From Bacteroidales bacterium (GTDB taxonomy: Bacteria > Bacteroidota > Bacteroidia > Bacteroidales > UBA12170): a DNA stretch of 64,000 bases. The stretch covers positions 1 through 64,000 of the forward strand of contig JADGDY010000002.1 of assembly GCA_016744655.1 (NCBI GenBank), read 5' to 3'. Position 1 is the stretch's first letter; each line of letters opens with the position of its first letter. The position numbers and the translations under genes were made by a program. Under the pieces are notes generated by a model. The model had not been told where the DNA came from. It did no database searches and worked only from the letters and a program-made list of their open reading frames with translations. Shown piece by piece: positions 24,644 to 48,436 of the stretch.

Positions 24644-25333
24644 CTATCCTGAAATACTAATTTTCTCCAATTTCTCTTTATCCAATATTTCAAAGTGATT
24701 GTTATTACAAATAATAATGCCCTCCTCTGAAAACTCCTTGAGGATTCTAATAGTAGTTTCTTTTGTCATAGCAGAAATATCAGCCAAATCCTGTCTGCTT
24801 AAAACAGTATCGAACACATCGTTTTCATAGATTGAATTGGCTAAATACAGTAAGCAATCTGCCATTTTCCCATGGGTTTGTTTATGGGTTAAACTCAGCA
24901 TTTTTTGGAATTGCAAAATTACCTTTGAATTAACGTGGCGCAAAATAGCGGTGCTATATTCAGGGTTAGATTTCATGAATTCCTCATGCCGTGAAACTTT
25001 TATAAAACAGGCCACCGTTTCTTCCATGGCGACAGCCGTAAAATGATGGCTATTGTCAGTTAAAAAACCAGGGCCCAAGACCAAATCAACAGGCTTAAGT
25101 ATGGATAAAATGATTCTTTTTTCCGAATTTTCATCCTCAAGATAAATTTTTACCATTCCACTGGTAATGCAAATCATATGTGTTAGAGGACCACCCGTTT
25201 TAAATATGGTTTCTCCAGCCTTGTACCTTACTTCTCTTCGGTTATCATTTATTTCATGTAGTTGATCATCAGATAAATAACAGAACATATTTATCTTGTT
25301 ATTACAAGTAAAACAGTCGCTCGTTTTCTTCAT
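24644..25333 (-). CDS. Crp/Fnr-family transcriptional regulator, FNR-like
   Basis: 229 residues: an N-terminal cyclic-nucleotide-binding-type beta roll (about 25-140), a dimerisation helix, and a C-terminal winged helix (about 165-220: SRQDLADISAMTKETTIRILKEF). Cysteines at 7, 10, 18 and 109 resemble the four cluster ligands of E. coli FNR (C20, C23, C29, C122), with CxxC spacing and about 91 residues between the third and fourth. The recognition helix KETTIR keeps the Glu and Arg that read TGA/TCA half-sites in CRP and FNR. I infer an oxygen- or redox-responsive regulator. It is divergent from the cytochrome locus, with a perfect FNR-type box between them. An iron-sulfur cluster is not proven; many Bacteroidota Crp/Fnr proteins carry N-terminal Cys of unknown role. 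Confidence 0.88.
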   Translation of the reverse strand: MKKTSDCFTCNNKINMFCYLSDDQLHEINDNRREVRYKAGETIFKTGGPLTHMICITSGMVKIYLEDENSEKRIILSILKPVDLVLGPGFLTDNSHHFTAVAMEETVACFIKVSRHEEFMKSNPEYSTAILRHVNSKVILQFQKMLSLTHKQTHGKMADCLLYLANSIYENDVFDTVLSRQDLADISAMTKETTIRILKEFSEEGIIICNNNHFEILDKEKLEKISISG

Positions 25334-25423: not shown

Positions 25424-25439
25424 ATTGATCTATATCAAT
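25424..25439. promoter_or_regulatory. Perfect FNR-type operator
   Basis: TTGAT-CTAT-ATCAA (25425-25438) is an exact match to the TTGAT-N4-ATCAA FNR consensus, extended by one matched base on each side. Its centre is about 98 bp upstream of the regulator start and 127 bp upstream of the first cytochrome start. It could therefore serve autoregulation, control of the cytochromes, or both. A weaker half-matching palindrome, TGAT-TTAAG-ATCA, lies about 20 bp to the right. Confidence 0.75.
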
Positions 25440-25558
25440 TAATTATGATTTAAGATCATTTTCTTAGCGTTTAGTATCATGGTGTTAAAATCTGTTAATT
25501 AACTCTTAATTCTTATTATTGTATTGGAGAAAATAAAACTTATTAAAACATAATTATT

Positions 25559-26602
25559 ATGAAAAAAGGGAACAGATTTTATTTGGTTCTAAGCTTGTTT
25601 ATTGCCATTGCATTTGCTTTCACCAATTGTACCAAAGAAGGACCAGCCGGACCAGCTGGAGCTACTGGACAAAATGGTGTTGATGGTGTAAATGGAACAG
25701 ACGGAACCGATGGCGTTGATGGAAACGCTTTGTGCTTAGAGTGTCATACTCTAGGTAAAATGGAGGGTATAGGGCATTCTTATGAATTATCACAACACGC
25801 TGCAGGTGATTTTGTTGGGTATGCTGGAGCAAGAAATGATTGTGCTAAATGTCACTCTCACGAAGGATTTATGGAGACTCTCCGTACAGGTAGAGATACT
25901 ACTGCTGCTAATATTCCAATTCCAACAGCATTTACTTGTAAAACTTGTCATGGAAGTCATGTGAGCTTCGATCCTGAAGAAGGTGATTTAACACCTCTTA
26001 ATGCGATTGAACCATTTACTTTAATGATGGATGGACATACCACTACTATGGATATGGGACATTCTAATTTATGTGCTGGTTGTCACCAACCTCGCAGACC
26101 AGCTCCTGTTGCTGATGAAGATGGCAATTTTGCTATTACCAGTTCGCATTATGGACCACACCACGGGCCTCAATCTACAGTATTAGAAGGAATTGGTGGT
26201 TATGAAGTTGGAGCAGGATATCCTGAGCCAGGTTCTGATATTCACCGTCAGCAAAGTTCTTGTTTAGATTGTCACGTAAAATATACTCCAGGTGCAGATT
26301 ATGGTGGACATAAATTTTCTGCTGGTGTAGGTGCTTGTACAACTTGTCACCCTGATGCTACTGATCTAGATATTAATGGTAAACAAACTGAAATTGCTGG
26401 TTTAACAGAAGAACTAAAAGTTTTATTAATGGCTCAAGGTATTTTAGATGCTGAAGGACATGTTGTTCCTGGTACTTATACAATTAATCAAGCCGGTGCA
26501 TTCTATAATTATGCAACTGTTGTAGAAGATAGATCTAAAGGTGTTCACAACTATGAGTATGTGAAAACACTATTGATTAATTCTATTGCTGTAATGCAGT
26601 AA
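25559..26602 (+). CDS. Six-haem c-type cytochrome lipoprotein with collagen-like stalk
   Basis: 347 residues. The signal peptide ends in a lipobox-like AFTNC (Cys24). The mature N-terminus is a collagen-like Gly-X-Y tract (residues 28-56, GPAGPAGATGQNGVDGVNG and on). Six CxxCH haem motifs follow, starting at C59, C95, C127, C172, C235 and C260, with extra His residues that may be distal ligands. The C-terminal 80 residues have no haem. As a lipoprotein with a flexible stalk, it may stand off the membrane, possibly on the outer surface. It heads the cytochrome locus but is followed by its own terminator, so it may be expressed more strongly than the genes downstream. No match to a characterised reductase is recognised. 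Confidence 0.88.
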   Translation: MKKGNRFYLVLSLFIAIAFAFTNCTKEGPAGPAGATGQNGVDGVNGTDGTDGVDGNALCLECHTLGKMEGIGHSYELSQHAAGDFVGYAGARNDCAKCHSHEGFMETLRTGRDTTAANIPIPTAFTCKTCHGSHVSFDPEEGDLTPLNAIEPFTLMMDGHTTTMDMGHSNLCAGCHQPRRPAPVADEDGNFAITSSHYGPHHGPQSTVLEGIGGYEVGAGYPEPGSDIHRQQSSCLDCHVKYTPGADYGGHKFSAGVGACTTCHPDATDLDINGKQTEIAGLTEELKVLLMAQGILDAEGHVVPGTYTINQAGAFYNYATVVEDRSKGVHNYEYVKTLLINSIAVMQ

Positions 26603-26628
26603 TAATCTTGAAATTATTTAATCAAAAT

Positions 26629-26661
26629 AAAAAAGGCTTCAAATTGTTTGGAGCCTTTTTA
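26629..26661 (+). terminator. Terminator after the six-haem cytochrome
   Basis: AAAAAGGCT and AGCCTTTTT form a stem around a loop of about 13 bases with a T run. It separates the first cytochrome gene from the rest of the locus and may be only partly efficient. Confidence 0.75.
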
Positions 26662-26778
26662 TAGCTTATGGCATAAATAGGTAAATAAAACATTTAAGTT
26701 GTTGTAATTAAGTTAGCTAACCATAAGAATGAATTTTTGTATCTTGTGCATTGTTATTCATTAAAATAAATCAAAATC

Positions 26779-27165
26779 ATGAATAAATTATTAAAATACA
26801 CTTTATTATTAATTGGTATCGTTGGATTCTTTTCCTCTTGCCAATACAAATTTAATATCGAACCCATTATTCCACCGCCAGATCCTACAGATACCATTTA
26901 CTTCTCTCAGGATATTCTTCCCATATGGAACACCGATAATAACTGTACTTCTTGTCATAATTCAGGTGGAACAGCTCCAGATCTAACAACAGACAATGCT
27001 TATGCAGCAGTTGTTCCTTCATATGTGAATACCACTTCACCTAATGAGAGTGTTATTTATACCGCAGCAGATCCCAACACATACACTCATGGATGGAAAA
27101 AATATACAAGCTCAGAAGCAGCTATTGTTTTACAATGGATAGAACAAGGTGCTTTGAATAATTAG
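26779..27165 (+). CDS. Monohaem c-type cytochrome lipoprotein
   Basis: 128 residues. A lipoprotein signal ends in FFSSC (Cys21). A Pro-rich linker (EPIIPPPDPTD) is followed by one haem site, C56-T-S-C59-H60, in the context ILPIWNTDNNCTSCHNSGGTAPDL. That context resembles the haem-binding segment of DUF1549/PSCyt1-like domains. A Met is not obvious as sixth ligand. The gene lies 1 bp before the next reading frame, which opens a dense operon of barrel, monohaem, seven-haem and cytochrome b genes. Confidence 0.85.
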   Translation: MNKLLKYTLLLIGIVGFFSSCQYKFNIEPIIPPPDPTDTIYFSQDILPIWNTDNNCTSCHNSGGTAPDLTTDNAYAAVVPSYVNTTSPNESVIYTAADPNTYTHGWKKYTSSEAAIVLQWIEQGALNN

Positions 27166-27187
27166 TATGAATTTAAAATTTGAAAAA

Positions 27188-28084
27188 ATGAAAAAGATAG
27201 TATTTATTATATTGGGGCTTTATATGAGTTTTGGAATGGCGTTTGCACAAGAAACAGAAATCGAAAAGCCAAAAGACCGACCTATTAGAGCTCCATTTGA
27301 AAGTGGAATTTTAATCGATAACCAAACTACTGTAGTGCCAAGTAAAAAGACATTGGAAATGCATATTCAGCACCGTTTTGGTCTCATTAAAAACAATGGA
27401 GCATCTGACCTTTGGGGAATTTATGCACCATCGGCTAATACCAGAATGGGATTTAATTATTCACTTACCGATGATATTATGATAGGTTATGGTATCACAA
27501 AGAAAAACATGTATAACGATTTTCAAGTGAAATGGACCTTCTTAAAACAAACCCGTAAGAATACCATTCCTCTGACCATTTCTGCATATGGAAACATGGC
27601 CATCGATGGACAAAAGGATGATGTTTATGGAGATGACTATGAGTTTGCAAATAGGATGAGTTATTTTGCTCAGGTTATTGTAGGCCGTAAGTTTAGTGAG
27701 GCGTTTTCATTAGAGTTAAATGCCAGTTTTACTCATTATAATTCAGTTAAGTCAGAAGTTGCAAATATTACTGGCTATGAGCATGACGTGATAGGAATTG
27801 GTGGTCATTTTAGGTTTAAATTTTCTCCGCAATCCTCTATTTTAATTATGTATACTACTCCTCTCAATATAAGCAGTATGCACGAAAACACAACAGTATT
27901 GAATGCATGGAAATCGAATTTTGGTGTAGCTTATGAAGTAGCTACTAGTACCCATGCTTTCCAAATATTTGTTTCTACAGCAAATGGAATTGTACCTCAA
28001 GATATTTATATGTATAACGAAGCTGATTTGTCTGAAACTGAATTCCGTTTTGGATTCAACATCACTCGTTTATGGAACTTTTAA
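27188..28084 (+). CDS. Predicted outer-membrane beta-barrel (DUF5777-like)
   Basis: Start set at the Met at 27188 (MKKIVFIILGLYMSFGMAFAQ), a good signal peptide; a start at 27167 would add seven residues. The mature part, about 278 residues, shows alternating strands throughout (TLEMHIQHRFGLI, TRMGFNYSLTDDIMIGYGIT, FQVKWTFLKQ, FSLELNASFTHYNS) and a final strand ending in F (FRFGFNITRLWNF). It matches what I recall of the DUF5777 family. Position between haem proteins suggests an outer-membrane channel that could hold or contact a cytochrome, as MtrB does, but it is much smaller than MtrB. That role is inference only. Confidence 0.75.
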   Translation: MKKIVFIILGLYMSFGMAFAQETEIEKPKDRPIRAPFESGILIDNQTTVVPSKKTLEMHIQHRFGLIKNNGASDLWGIYAPSANTRMGFNYSLTDDIMIGYGITKKNMYNDFQVKWTFLKQTRKNTIPLTISAYGNMAIDGQKDDVYGDDYEFANRMSYFAQVIVGRKFSEAFSLELNASFTHYNSVKSEVANITGYEHDVIGIGGHFRFKFSPQSSILIMYTTPLNISSMHENTTVLNAWKSNFGVAYEVATSTHAFQIFVSTANGIVPQDIYMYNEADLSETEFRFGFNITRLWNF

Positions 28085-28113
28085 TTAGAATCTTTAACTA
28101 AAAAACTAATAGA

Positions 28114-28539
28114 ATGAAATCAATAAAGAAAACAGTATTGACTTTAGCAACAGTGGTTTTTGCTTTATCAATGATGGCTTTTGTAATGCCTCAAGATCAG
28201 AAAAAAGGTGGTCCTTGGGAGATTCCTGCAGAATATCAAAGTATGACTAACCCTTATGCTGATGATGCCAGCTTAAATAAAATTGGAAAAATGCTTTATA
28301 GCAAGCATTGTAAATCTTGTCATGGTAACAAAGGATTAGGCGATGGCCCAAAGGCAAAGAAATTAGATACTTTTGCTGGTGATTTTTCTACTTCAGAATT
28401 TCATGCCATGAGCGATGGAGAAATGTTTTACAAGTCGATAATTGGCCGTGATGAAATGCCAAATTACGAAGGCAAAATTCCAGATGTTGAAGATCGTTGG
28501 GCCATCATCAATTATATGAGAGCTACTTTTAAGAAATAA
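28114..28539 (+). CDS. Periplasmic monohaem cytochrome c
   Basis: 141 residues. Signal peptide of about 25 residues (...MMAFVMPQ). One class I cytochrome c domain: haem site C66-K-S-C69-H70 in YSKHCKSCHGNKGLGDGPKAKKL and a likely distal Met in GRDEMPNYEGKI near residue 112. It is a small soluble electron carrier, probably moving electrons between the seven-haem protein and the outer membrane. Its stop is 3 bp before the next start, showing tight coupling. Confidence 0.92.
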   Translation: MKSIKKTVLTLATVVFALSMMAFVMPQDQKKGGPWEIPAEYQSMTNPYADDASLNKIGKMLYSKHCKSCHGNKGLGDGPKAKKLDTFAGDFSTSEFHAMSDGEMFYKSIIGRDEMPNYEGKIPDVEDRWAIINYMRATFKK

Positions 28540-28542
28540 CAA

Positions 28543-29514
28543 ATGATAAAGCTATCACATAAATATAGCTTGGTTTTTCTCCTGAGTTTTGCTGTTCTTT
28601 TCTCTTCTGCACAAGAAGAGGTTAGGGAATATACCAATGCAGGAGAAAACCATCATTGTTTAAAATGCCACGGACAATCCTTTTATACTTTTTATAATGA
28701 TTGGACAGAATTGGATGTAAGAAAGATTATGCCACAGGAATATTATGTGGATACAGTTATGTTTTATTCTGCCAGCCATTGGGATTTCAAATGTACCGAT
28801 TGCCATACAGAAGATTATCAGACCTTTCCTCATGATGGGGAGCTTCGTATGGAGTTTTTGAATACTTGTGTCGACTGTCATGGTGGAGATGAGGATTGGG
28901 AGCATTTCAAATTTGAAGATATAGAAGAAGACTTTAATGCCAGTGTGCATAGTCCCGAAACACTTCCAAATTTTAGTTGTTGGAGTTGTCACGACCCTCA
29001 TAGCTATAAATTGGATTACCGCAATACTGAAGACCTAATTTCTACCATCAGCAAGAATAATGATGCTTGTATGAAGTGTCATAATCAAGAAAGTCACATG
29101 CGTTTGCATACTGATGAGCCTTTCAAGGATTTAGCGACAAGCCACGAGTTTTTACCCAATCAAAGAGCCCATTACAATAAAGTTCGTTGTATTGAGTGTC
29201 ATGGTGATTTAGATGGAGAAGCTTTGGTGGCGCATAAAATACTTCCTGCTGAAGAAAGTGTGAAGAATTGTAAAGAATGTCACTCCAAGAATTCCTTGTT
29301 AATGGCCAGCCTTTATAAGTTCCAATCGCAAGAAAACAGAAAGAAATTTGGTTTTTACAATGCCAGCATCCTCAATGAATCTTATGTGATAGGAGCATCA
29401 AAGAATTACATCTTGAATGTTTTTACCATTGTGGTTTTTGCATTGAGTATTTTGGCCATTCTAACACATGCAATTATTCTTAGAATCTCAAAAAAGAAAA
29501 ATCATGGCAAATAG
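28543..29514 (+). CDS. Seven-haem c-type cytochrome, membrane-anchored
   Basis: 323 residues. Signal peptide (...VLFSSAQ). Seven CxxCH sites start at C39, C84, C109, C146, C176, C216 and C243, giving a cytochrome c3/NrfB-like chain of haems. A C-terminal transmembrane helix (about 290-312, ILNVFTIVVFALSILAILTHAII) ends in RISKKKNHGK, placing the haem domain in the periplasm and the tail in the cytoplasm. It overlaps the cytochrome b gene by 11 bp. The pair resembles a quinol dehydrogenase module in which the b subunit takes electrons from menaquinol and passes them to the multihaem chain. Confidence 0.9.
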   Translation: MIKLSHKYSLVFLLSFAVLFSSAQEEVREYTNAGENHHCLKCHGQSFYTFYNDWTELDVRKIMPQEYYVDTVMFYSASHWDFKCTDCHTEDYQTFPHDGELRMEFLNTCVDCHGGDEDWEHFKFEDIEEDFNASVHSPETLPNFSCWSCHDPHSYKLDYRNTEDLISTISKNNDACMKCHNQESHMRLHTDEPFKDLATSHEFLPNQRAHYNKVRCIECHGDLDGEALVAHKILPAEESVKNCKECHSKNSLLMASLYKFQSQENRKKFGFYNASILNESYVIGASKNYILNVFTIVVFALSILAILTHAIILRISKKKNHGK

Positions 29515-30118
29515 ACTTTATTTATATCCCATTTGGTTAAGGATTTGGCATATGATAAATGCGCTTCTATTTTTAGCCCTGATAGTCACAGGATTGAGTA
29601 TGCAATATTCTCCTGTTGAAAACCCTCTTATTGAGTTCCAAACTGCCATTGCTGTTCATAATATAGCTGGAATTTTAATCATTGCTGCTTATATTATCTT
29701 TATGGTGACTAATTTTTCTTCTTCAAATAAAAAGTATTATGTGATGAAGAAAAAAGGCTTAATGGACCGATTGATGAAGCAAAGTAGATATTATGCTTAT
29801 GGCATGTTTAAAGGTGAATCTACACCCTTCCCAGTAACTGAAGATGAAAAATTCAATCCACTGCAAAAACTAAGTTATGTGGGAGTGATTTATATTCTAC
29901 TTCCCATATTGATGATTACCGGATTGGCATTGCTATATCCAGAGTTTATCGTTCATAAGGTATTTGGATTAAACGGAACCATGCTTACAGCTTTATTGCA
30001 TATGTTTATGGGATTCCTTCTAACCTTGTTTTTACTCATCCACTTGTACTTCGCAAGTTTAAGTAAGAAGAAGTTTGCCAACTTTAAGTCAATGATTACA
30101 GGCTGGCATGAGCACTAG
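29504..30118 (+). CDS. Cytochrome b561-like dihaem membrane subunit
   Basis: Start set at the Met at 29504 (MANRLYLYPIWLRIWH), overlapping the seven-haem gene by 11 bp; the longer frame from 29468 is unlikely. 204 residues with four predicted helices. Histidines fit for haem b ligands: WH in helix 1, AVHN in helix 2, and two in the last helix region (LLHMFMGF and LLIHLYF). It matches the FdnI/NapC-partner type of cytochrome b561 that oxidises menaquinol. It ends the locus and is followed by a strong terminator. Confidence 0.87.
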   Translation: MANRLYLYPIWLRIWHMINALLFLALIVTGLSMQYSPVENPLIEFQTAIAVHNIAGILIIAAYIIFMVTNFSSSNKKYYVMKKKGLMDRLMKQSRYYAYGMFKGESTPFPVTEDEKFNPLQKLSYVGVIYILLPILMITGLALLYPEFIVHKVFGLNGTMLTALLHMFMGFLLTLFLLIHLYFASLSKKKFANFKSMITGWHEH

Positions 30119-31803: not shown

Positions 31804-32127
31804 TTAATCAATAAATGTTTCCTTCAAAACAGATTTTACCTCTTTTATTTCTGGTTTGGATAAGCTTCCTAGTATTTTTAGAACCCTTGCTTTATTAATG
31901 GTTCTAATTTGATCTATTACTGCCCATCCTAATTTATTATCATGTTTTATTTCAACACGTGTTGGATAAATTCTTGAAGTAGTTGTCATCGGAGCAATAG
32001 TAATAGTTCTGAGGTGCCGATTCATTTCATCAGGAGAAATAATAATGCAAGGTCTAGTTTTTTTTATTTCGCTACTAATAGTAGGATCTAAATTTACCAA
32101 GATAATTTGATATTGTATTAACTCCAT
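31804..32127 (-). CDS. mazF: MazF/PemK-family toxin endoribonuclease
   Basis: 107 residues, typical length. MazF-family features: a start with YQIILVNLDPTISSEIKKTRPCIIISPDEMNRHLRTITIAPMTT, the internal LGWAVIDQIRTINKARV, and LGSLSKPEI. MazF toxins cut mRNA at short sequences in the cytoplasm. The antitoxin gene lies 11 bp upstream on the same strand, giving the usual antitoxin-toxin order. It sits between housekeeping genes glyQS and tatA, without other mobile features. Confidence 0.9.
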   Translation of the reverse strand: MELIQYQIILVNLDPTISSEIKKTRPCIIISPDEMNRHLRTITIAPMTTTSRIYPTRVEIKHDNKLGWAVIDQIRTINKARVLKILGSLSKPEIKEVKSVLKETFID

Positions 32128-32138
32128 TCTTCAAGGTT

Positions 32139-32363
32139 TTAATTTTCAAATACATCATCAATTAATAACTGATCATCTCCATTATTATTCATTTCCTGAA
32201 AAGCTTTATCCCAACCTTTTCTAGGGTTTGCAATGGGCTTAATAATGAAAAAGCTTTTTTCAAGGATTAATTCTACTTTATCCTTGATGTTATATTTTTC
32301 AATGATTGTTTTAGAAAGTCTAAAACCTTTTGAATTACCTATTTGTATGACTGAAACTTCCAT
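32139..32363 (-). CDS. mazE: MazE-like (AbrB/SpoVT fold) antitoxin
   Basis: Start set at the Met at 32363 (MEVSVIQIGNSKGFRLSKTII), where the conserved AbrB swapped-hairpin domain begins; the longer frame is probably not translated. 74 residues: DNA-binding N-terminus (VIQIGNSKGFRL ... DKVELILEKSFFIIKP) and an acidic, flexible C-terminus (GWDKAFQEMNNNGDDQLLIDDVFEN) that should wrap MazF. It neutralises the toxin and represses its own promoter. Confidence 0.88.
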   Translation of the reverse strand: MEVSVIQIGNSKGFRLSKTIIEKYNIKDKVELILEKSFFIIKPIANPRKGWDKAFQEMNNNGDDQLLIDDVFEN

Positions 32364-32444
32364 AAAACACATTTTAAATGTAATTACAAAGTTAGTACAA
32401 AATATATGCAATAGCAAGTGAGAAAAAACAATAAACATTAAATA

Positions 32445-47740: not shown

Positions 47741-48436
47741 TTAGTTTGTCGTTGTTGTAATGGTAGTCGTCGCAATTATTATGATAAGTACTGCAATTAT
47801 TGTATCATGAAGTTCTTTAATCAACTGACCTGTGGTATCTGCAAACTGATAGTCTTTAATGATGCTTTTTATCTTTTTATCATTCTTTTTTGCAATCTCC
47901 TTACAATACACTTCTTTATTTAATCCACATGAATCAACAAGACTAATAATCATAATTTCATCTATCTCAGCTTTCGAATTATTTTTGATGATGTCATTTA
48001 ATCGTTGGCGTACAGTTTTTTCTGGAATTTCATTCTTTGTCGGGTATTTTCTTTTTGTGAAAATCCACAGTATCTTATTCTCCTTTTCCTCTAAGATTCC
48101 TAATGAAATTAACTTACGAAGTACTGATTTACGTAAAAAACCTTCTTTATTACCCAACAACTCAATCCAACGACCGACTTTTCTTTCTATCTTCGATTCA
48201 GATATTTTTTCTAGGCAATAATCTAAGATTTCATCATTCAATTTATCTTTGTTTATTATCTTAACTTTATTCTCAATAATTTCAATTCTCTCCTTAACGG
48301 AAAGCTCAAACAACACTGCTCCTGCAATGCAATATCCAAAAACCATTGAATCTGCTACAAAAGCCCCTTTTTCATCATCTAGTGCAAGAAGAACCAGTTT
48401 ATCTATTAAGGTTAAATTTGGTGTATTATCACTCAT
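47741..48436 (-). CDS. GPP34 (Golgi phosphoprotein 3-like) domain protein
   Basis: 231 residues. Matches the GPP34/GOLPH3 family: LTLIDKLVLLALDDEKGAFVADSMVFGYCIAGAVLFEL at the N-terminus and IIKDYQFADTTGQLIKELHDTIIAVL at the C-terminus. Eukaryotic GOLPH3 binds phosphatidylinositol 4-phosphate and retains Golgi glycosyltransferases; bacterial members are soluble proteins of unknown role. This one ends in a hydrophobic helix and a Thr-rich tail (TIIAVLIIIIATTTITTTTN), so it may be tail-anchored. It lies among decayed genes and is perhaps horizontally acquired. Confidence 0.82.
   Translation of the reverse strand: MSDNTPNLTLIDKLVLLALDDEKGAFVADSMVFGYCIAGAVLFELSVKERIEIIENKVKIINKDKLNDEILDYCLEKISESKIERKVGRWIELLGNKEGFLRKSVLRKLISLGILEEKENKILWIFTKRKYPTKNEIPEKTVRQRLNDIIKNNSKAEIDEIMIISLVDSCGLNKEVYCKEIAKKNDKKIKSIIKDYQFADTTGQLIKELHDTIIAVLIIIIATTTITTTTN

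Follow-up and report, generated by a model that had tools for sequence, protein, structure and literature searches.

The described systems closest to the one reported here are the Mtr/Pcc conduits, Cyc2 and surface cytochromes of the OcwA kind. The MtrB barrel has more strands than the 16 of Cyc2, and OcwA of Thermincola potens is an iron-reducing surface terminal reductase that also reduces hydroxylamine and, slowly, nitrite. Reduction of Fe(III) and Mn(IV) oxides has been reported for cultured Bacteroidota, with the genes unassigned (PMC5760507). The present analysis concerns a six-gene cluster in a 64-kb window (the whole stretch of DNA analysed, positions 1 to 64,000 of contig JADGDY010000002.1, assembly GCA_016744655.1) from a Bacteroidales bacterium. 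All six genes lie on the + strand and encode a six-haem lipoprotein (MHC6), a monohaem lipoprotein (mono1), an outer-membrane beta-barrel of the DUF5777 family, a periplasmic monohaem cytochrome c (mono2), a seven-haem cytochrome (MHC7) and a cytochrome b561-type subunit. We consider it fairly probable, from homology and predicted structures, that the cluster specifies an FNR-controlled chain of Bacteroidales that exports electrons to an extracellular acceptor. In such a chain, b561 would oxidise menaquinol in the inner membrane and pass the electrons to its anchored partner MHC7, a putative bis-His relay, from which they would reach the small periplasmic cytochromes mono2 and mono1. The mono1-DUF5777 pair would form the outer-membrane station, and MHC6, a stalked lipoprotein outside, would be the terminal cytochrome, its acceptor most likely being Fe(III) or Mn(IV) oxides, humics or another extracellular acceptor. 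The chain would be induced anaerobically and would let fermenters dispose of electrons. An earlier note on this DNA had proposed six co-directional genes with 15 c-type haems, leading from quinol to the outer membrane under oxygen control. The open reading frames (ORFs) and family searches bear out the genes and their families, the CXXCH motifs give the same haem total (6+1+1+7 = 15), and both the quinol-to-surface logic and the FNR-type control are supported, the latter by FNR boxes and a divergent CRP/FNR gene.

When about 85,000 species genomes were scanned with the MHC7 profile, 356 relatives were returned, and neighbourhoods were counted around the best 80 of these, the loci being picked by MHC7 alone. 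The counts are minima because many contigs end within the cluster. All 80 relatives are Bacteroidota by name. DUF5777 was found in 79 of the 80 loci (at most three ORFs upstream in 75), b561 follows MHC7 in 77 at a median distance of 1 nucleotide (nt), and mono1, MHC6 and mono2 occur in 76, 61 and 58 loci, respectively. By these counts the gene set is kept together far beyond chance, and the synteny of the barrel with the six- and seven-haem proteins, suggested earlier as a check, proved to be conserved. The DUF5777 tree falls into two groups separated by a branch with support of 99: one group stands beside MHC7 and MHC6, the other beside YceI and other genes. Among the DUF5777 matches listed, the top-scoring were near MHC7/MHC6 in at least 1 of 85 cases and the lower-scoring in at least 48 of 65. 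The possibility that the barrel is normally unlinked to cytochromes does not apply to this clade, which always accompanies them, although the wider DUF5777 family is found mostly without multihaem ones. The conserved gene set in the 80 loci, together with a barrel clade specific to these clusters, is a first ground for the export chain. Of 10 same-genus genomes, 6 had the cluster, which also occurred in many further families of the order (60 relatives examined). Among 294 genomes drawn from the order, MHC7 was present in 66, MHC6 in 73, both in 57 and DUF5777 in 122. Only five of 296 genomes drawn from the phylum matched MHC7, namely the own genome, one nearly full match and three partial ones. 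Judged from these samples, members of this order often carry the system, whereas the rest of the phylum rarely does.

The proposed terminal cytochrome, MHC6 (25559..26602, +), carries six CXXCH motifs, the last being CX4CH in some relatives. Its homologues share a lipid-attachment Cys, a collagen-like Gly-X-Y run (mostly 5 to 10 triplets) and the six haem motifs, as well as six further conserved His (H80, H134, H201, H229, H251 and H330). An automatic lipobox-plus-stalk pattern recognised 71 of the 82 sequences; among the other 11, nine have the same start by inspection, one is truncated and one is a type IX secretion system (T9SS) protein. Searched against the PDB, the MHC6 profile matched 6qvm (E 1e-16) and OcwA (6i5b; E 1.5e-14), both better than NrfA, and the predicted fold gave the same picture (OcwA Z 13.7, 6qvm Z 13.4, nitrite reductases 11.3 or less). 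By profile and fold alike, the alignment covers the NrfA-like C-terminal haem core and the C-terminal helices of OcwA and 6qvm; the profile result weighs more, because the model is weak outside the C-terminal half. The 6qvm entry is titled an undecahaem cytochrome from the S-layer of Carboxydothermus ferrireducens and is probably OmhA, since the lengths are equal (681 amino acids). Haem 2 of MHC6 is aligned to haem 5 of OcwA, an open active-site haem, a correspondence of the alignment only, as openness in MHC6 cannot be read from sequence. That the closest solved relatives of MHC6 are OcwA and 6qvm, both metal reductases of the cell surface, is a second ground for the export chain. The earlier note had allowed that a periplasmic MHC6 would undo its proposal; the stalk, lipid anchor and OcwA-like core indirectly favour the surface side, where MHC6 is proposed to sit. 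Moreover, the cluster of one relative (L099:14573-16210, +) encodes a nine-haem NrfA/MHC6-like cytochrome ending in a T9SS sorting domain (TIGR04183, 37 bits, cut-off 23). This predicted tail is good evidence for export of a cluster cytochrome in that relative and a third ground for the export chain. No paper on collagen-like or T9SS multihaem cytochromes was found in a literature search that did not cover subscription journals, so that the absence is weak. Stand-alone MHC6 genes with the same stalk, the barrel and MHC7 not being nearby, were also observed (L075:9320-10330, L076:9583-10722 and L077:9011-10279).

The NrfA-type core of MHC6 raises the alternative that the protein is a periplasmic or surface reductase of a small molecule (nitrite, hydroxylamine or a sulfur oxyanion), with the barrel as its substrate pore. 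OcwA itself has such side activities, and b561 is nearest to a PhsC-type thiosulfate reductase model (NCBIfam, 188 bits, below the cut-off of 204). MHC6, however, lacks a CXXCK haem, its conserved extra His equal the haems in number (six), and its nearest relatives are metal reductases rather than NrfA. The own genome and the five others tested each encode genuine NrfA at another site, and Labilibaculum filiforme, which has the cluster, reduced neither nitrite nor sulfate (PMC5760507). We regard a small-molecule reductase as unlikely.

On the inner-membrane side, MHC7 (28543..29514, +; seven CXXCH and a transmembrane helix) has seven invariant extra His and a C-terminal membrane anchor. It would thus hold seven bis-His haems and act as a relay, not a catalyst. 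The b561-type subunit (29504..30118, +; PF01292, 90 bits) would be the quinol-oxidising partner, with conserved His (H28, H64, H178 and H192) as expected for two b haems. Between MHC7 and the barrel gene lies mono2 (28114..28539, +; PF13442/PF00034), in which the distal Met115 is invariant by conservation. Relatives add NrfC/DsrO-like (23 of 80 loci) and NrfD/DsrP-like proteins (19 of 80), and also a 19-haem b561-fused protein, a NapC-like hexahaem protein and ResB/CcsA cytochrome maturation genes; as classified by family, the recurring additions are quinol and electron-transfer modules. Across the 80 related loci, neither a molybdopterin enzyme nor another catalytic reductase is a recurring neighbour, in agreement with the earlier remark that a known terminal reductase is lacking; the adjacent reductase in relatives that would have counted against the earlier proposal was not seen. 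The anchored bis-His relay, the added quinol modules and this lack of a catalytic reductase in relatives form a fourth ground for the export chain. The 19-haem protein (about 930 amino acids, with a C-terminal b561-like membrane domain; L060:9507-12302, L057:1851-4637 and L070:12366-15167) is a neighbour of the cluster in a dozen relatives or more and is apparently a one-protein quinol oxidase, as its domains suggest; it was not found in the own genome by a search that had no positive control.

At the outer membrane, the DUF5777 gene (27167..28084, +; PF19089, 238 bits, cut-off 23) is preceded by mono1 (26779..27165, +; weak PF13442), whose product has a proline-rich linker. Across both DUF5777 groups, 80 of 83 barrel genes have a gene for a mono1-like lipoprotein directly upstream. 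An AlphaFold2 model of the barrel has 12 strands (predicted local distance difference test, pLDDT, 82), and invariant residues lie at both barrel ends. These features could suit a stronger form of the export chain, in which mono1 plugs the barrel in the manner of Cyc2, a precedent for a monohaem cytochrome with a barrel, and electrons run through the lumen to MHC6 outside. Against it stand the mere 12 predicted strands and the modelling of even the 16-strand Cyc2 with its haem domain as a periplasmic plug, not spanning the membrane, and we think lumen wiring rather improbable. A bis-His haem site inside the barrel, considered for the invariant H69 and H263, was rejected, as the two lie at opposite ends in the predicted topology, with H69 on a hydrophobic face. 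The barrel is probably too narrow for an MtrA-type cytochrome, given the 12 predicted strands and established barrel geometry. With 12 predicted strands, no multihaem insert and two monohaem proteins that offer no obvious transmembrane wiring, the earlier proposal of a porin-cytochrome conduit resembling Mtr/Pcc is not supported in that form. The closest solved folds to the model are small 12-14-strand barrels (FapF, KdgM, a COG4313 channel and NalP); because small barrels resemble one another, kinship with FapF, NalP, KdgM or OmpG is not claimed from these matches. By sequence, DUF5777 has no relative in the PDB. No paper mentioning DUF5777 was found in the same literature search, with the same limit. 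In the YceI-side group, to which a second DUF5777 copy of the own genome belongs (L086, contig C10), the loci L078-L087 carry a tRNA_anti-like protein and monohaem PSCyt1-like cytochromes alongside, and L078 has the barrel gene beside genes resembling alternative complex III.

A further ground for the export chain comes from Labilibaculum filiforme 59.16B (locus L167), in which mono1, DUF5777, mono2, MHC7 and b561 stand together and MHC6 lies about 6.6 kb further on. This strain was reported to reduce Fe(III) oxides; the authors assigned no genes and suggested NrfHA (PMC5760507). Its single NrfA is encoded elsewhere in the genome. No MtrB/PioB (PF11854) match over the cut-off was found in L. 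filiforme or in the own genome, in a search whose control panel gave no strong positive. Cluster and Fe(III) reduction are thus correlated in a single strain, which falls short of proof. The cluster, which many Bacteroidales of sediments share, is the best candidate found for how such fermenters reduce iron oxides.

FNR boxes complete the grounds for the export chain. The window has a single perfect FNR box, TTGATCTATATCAA (25425..25438), 120 nt upstream of MHC6; 0.38 such matches would be expected by chance anywhere in the window. Of the 88 equivalent upstream regions, 40 contain TTGA-N6-TCAA, the expectation being 0.026 per region. The divergent regulator gene (24644..25333, -; PF00027 and PF13545) is of the CRP/FNR family, and an FNR gene is near the cluster in 60 of the 80 related loci. 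In the regulator, C7 and C10 (CxxC) and C109 are conserved among relatives. Oxygen sensing is likely rather than proven, because the third cluster Cys does not keep its position. We infer an outward direction of flow, as well as the acceptor. The reverse, a chain running inward to oxidise Fe(II), metallic iron or a partner cell, draws on the statement that such conduits can be bidirectional (PMC8258643); FNR-type control and occurrence in a fermenter that reduces Fe(III) oxides favour outward flow, and electron uptake seems to us very improbable.

Several points weigh against the export chain. It is proposed here from sequence comparison and predicted models; the model of MHC6 (mean pLDDT 70) has a weak N-terminal half; and MHC6 is also similar to NrfA enzymes. 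The AlphaFold2 model, a 12-strand barrel with no multihaem insert, offers no visible route for electrons through the membrane; for MHC6 and mono1, a clear export signal of the Bacteroidota lipoprotein type was not established; and MHC6 sometimes occurs without the rest of the cluster, as does the rest without MHC6. A more specific proposal is tentative, and we lean against it: a crossing architecture peculiar to Bacteroidota, in which a 12-strand barrel and a monohaem lipoprotein feed a collagen-stalked OcwA-type surface cytochrome, could explain Fe and Mn oxide reduction by fermentative Bacteroidales. With the cluster, a sequenced and culturable Fe(III)-oxide reducer has a conserved gene set to examine, so the question of the genes is directly testable. 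If the export chain is real, extracellular respiration reaches beyond MtrB-type barrels, the OcwA family gains a Gram-negative branch and part of DUF5777 gains a function.

The cluster is flanked by aspS and glyS. A strong intrinsic-terminator-like hairpin (26630..26660, +; -15.8 kcal/mol, z -4.8, followed by a U-run) separates MHC6 from the other five genes, so MHC6 is probably transcribed by itself and mono1 to b561 as a second unit. The split fits relatives with MHC6 on the opposite strand or several kb away. A sigma-70 promoter scan gave scores no better than shuffles, and an Rfam scan of 17-38 kb gave no match. The start of b561 is probably 29504, as homologues open at MAxxLYLYP (the listed ORF opens at 29468), which would leave an overlap of about 11 nt with MHC7; the barrel probably starts at 27188. 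Of the overlapping gene run described earlier, the six genes are thus real, while the b561 and barrel starts are probably shifted and the terminator-like hairpin probably splits the locus. Elsewhere in the window are a PemK/MazF-family toxin gene (31804-32438, -; PF02452, 98 bits), with a small ORF upstream that is probably its antitoxin, and a gene for a GPP34 (Golgi phosphoprotein 3) domain protein in a bacterium (47741-48436, -; PF05719).

Compared with known systems, the locus shares with OcwA and 6qvm the core of its proposed terminal cytochrome, but MHC6 differs from them in its six haems, lipid anchor, collagen-like stalk and Gram-negative outer-membrane setting. Like Cyc2, it combines a small monohaem cytochrome with a small barrel; unlike Cyc2, the two are encoded by separate genes, 12 rather than 16 strands are predicted, multihaem partners are present on both sides and the direction is presumed to be reductive. 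The YceI-linked DUF5777 loci of Bacteroidota have the same barrel family and upstream monohaem lipoprotein, but belong to a separate barrel clade and carry YceI in place of MHC6, MHC7 and b561. As in the Mtr/Pcc systems (MtrCAB and OmbB-OmaB-OmcB), quinol oxidation, periplasmic relay, outer-membrane barrel and a lipoprotein cytochrome, here with a presumed surface site, are encoded in one cluster. Nevertheless, as the earlier note had said, the families differ and the barrel is smaller than MtrB: it belongs to PF19089 rather than MtrB/PioB PF11854, and its 12 strands (a prediction, pLDDT 82) would probably not form a large barrel fit for a multihaem cytochrome. There is also no MtrA-like insert, since MHC7, the sole periplasmic multihaem protein, is anchored in the inner membrane and the others are monohaem, and the terminal cytochrome is of the OcwA/NrfA kind. 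The cluster follows the Mtr/Pcc plan of operation in outline but lacks what defines those systems, and is not to be classed as one of them.

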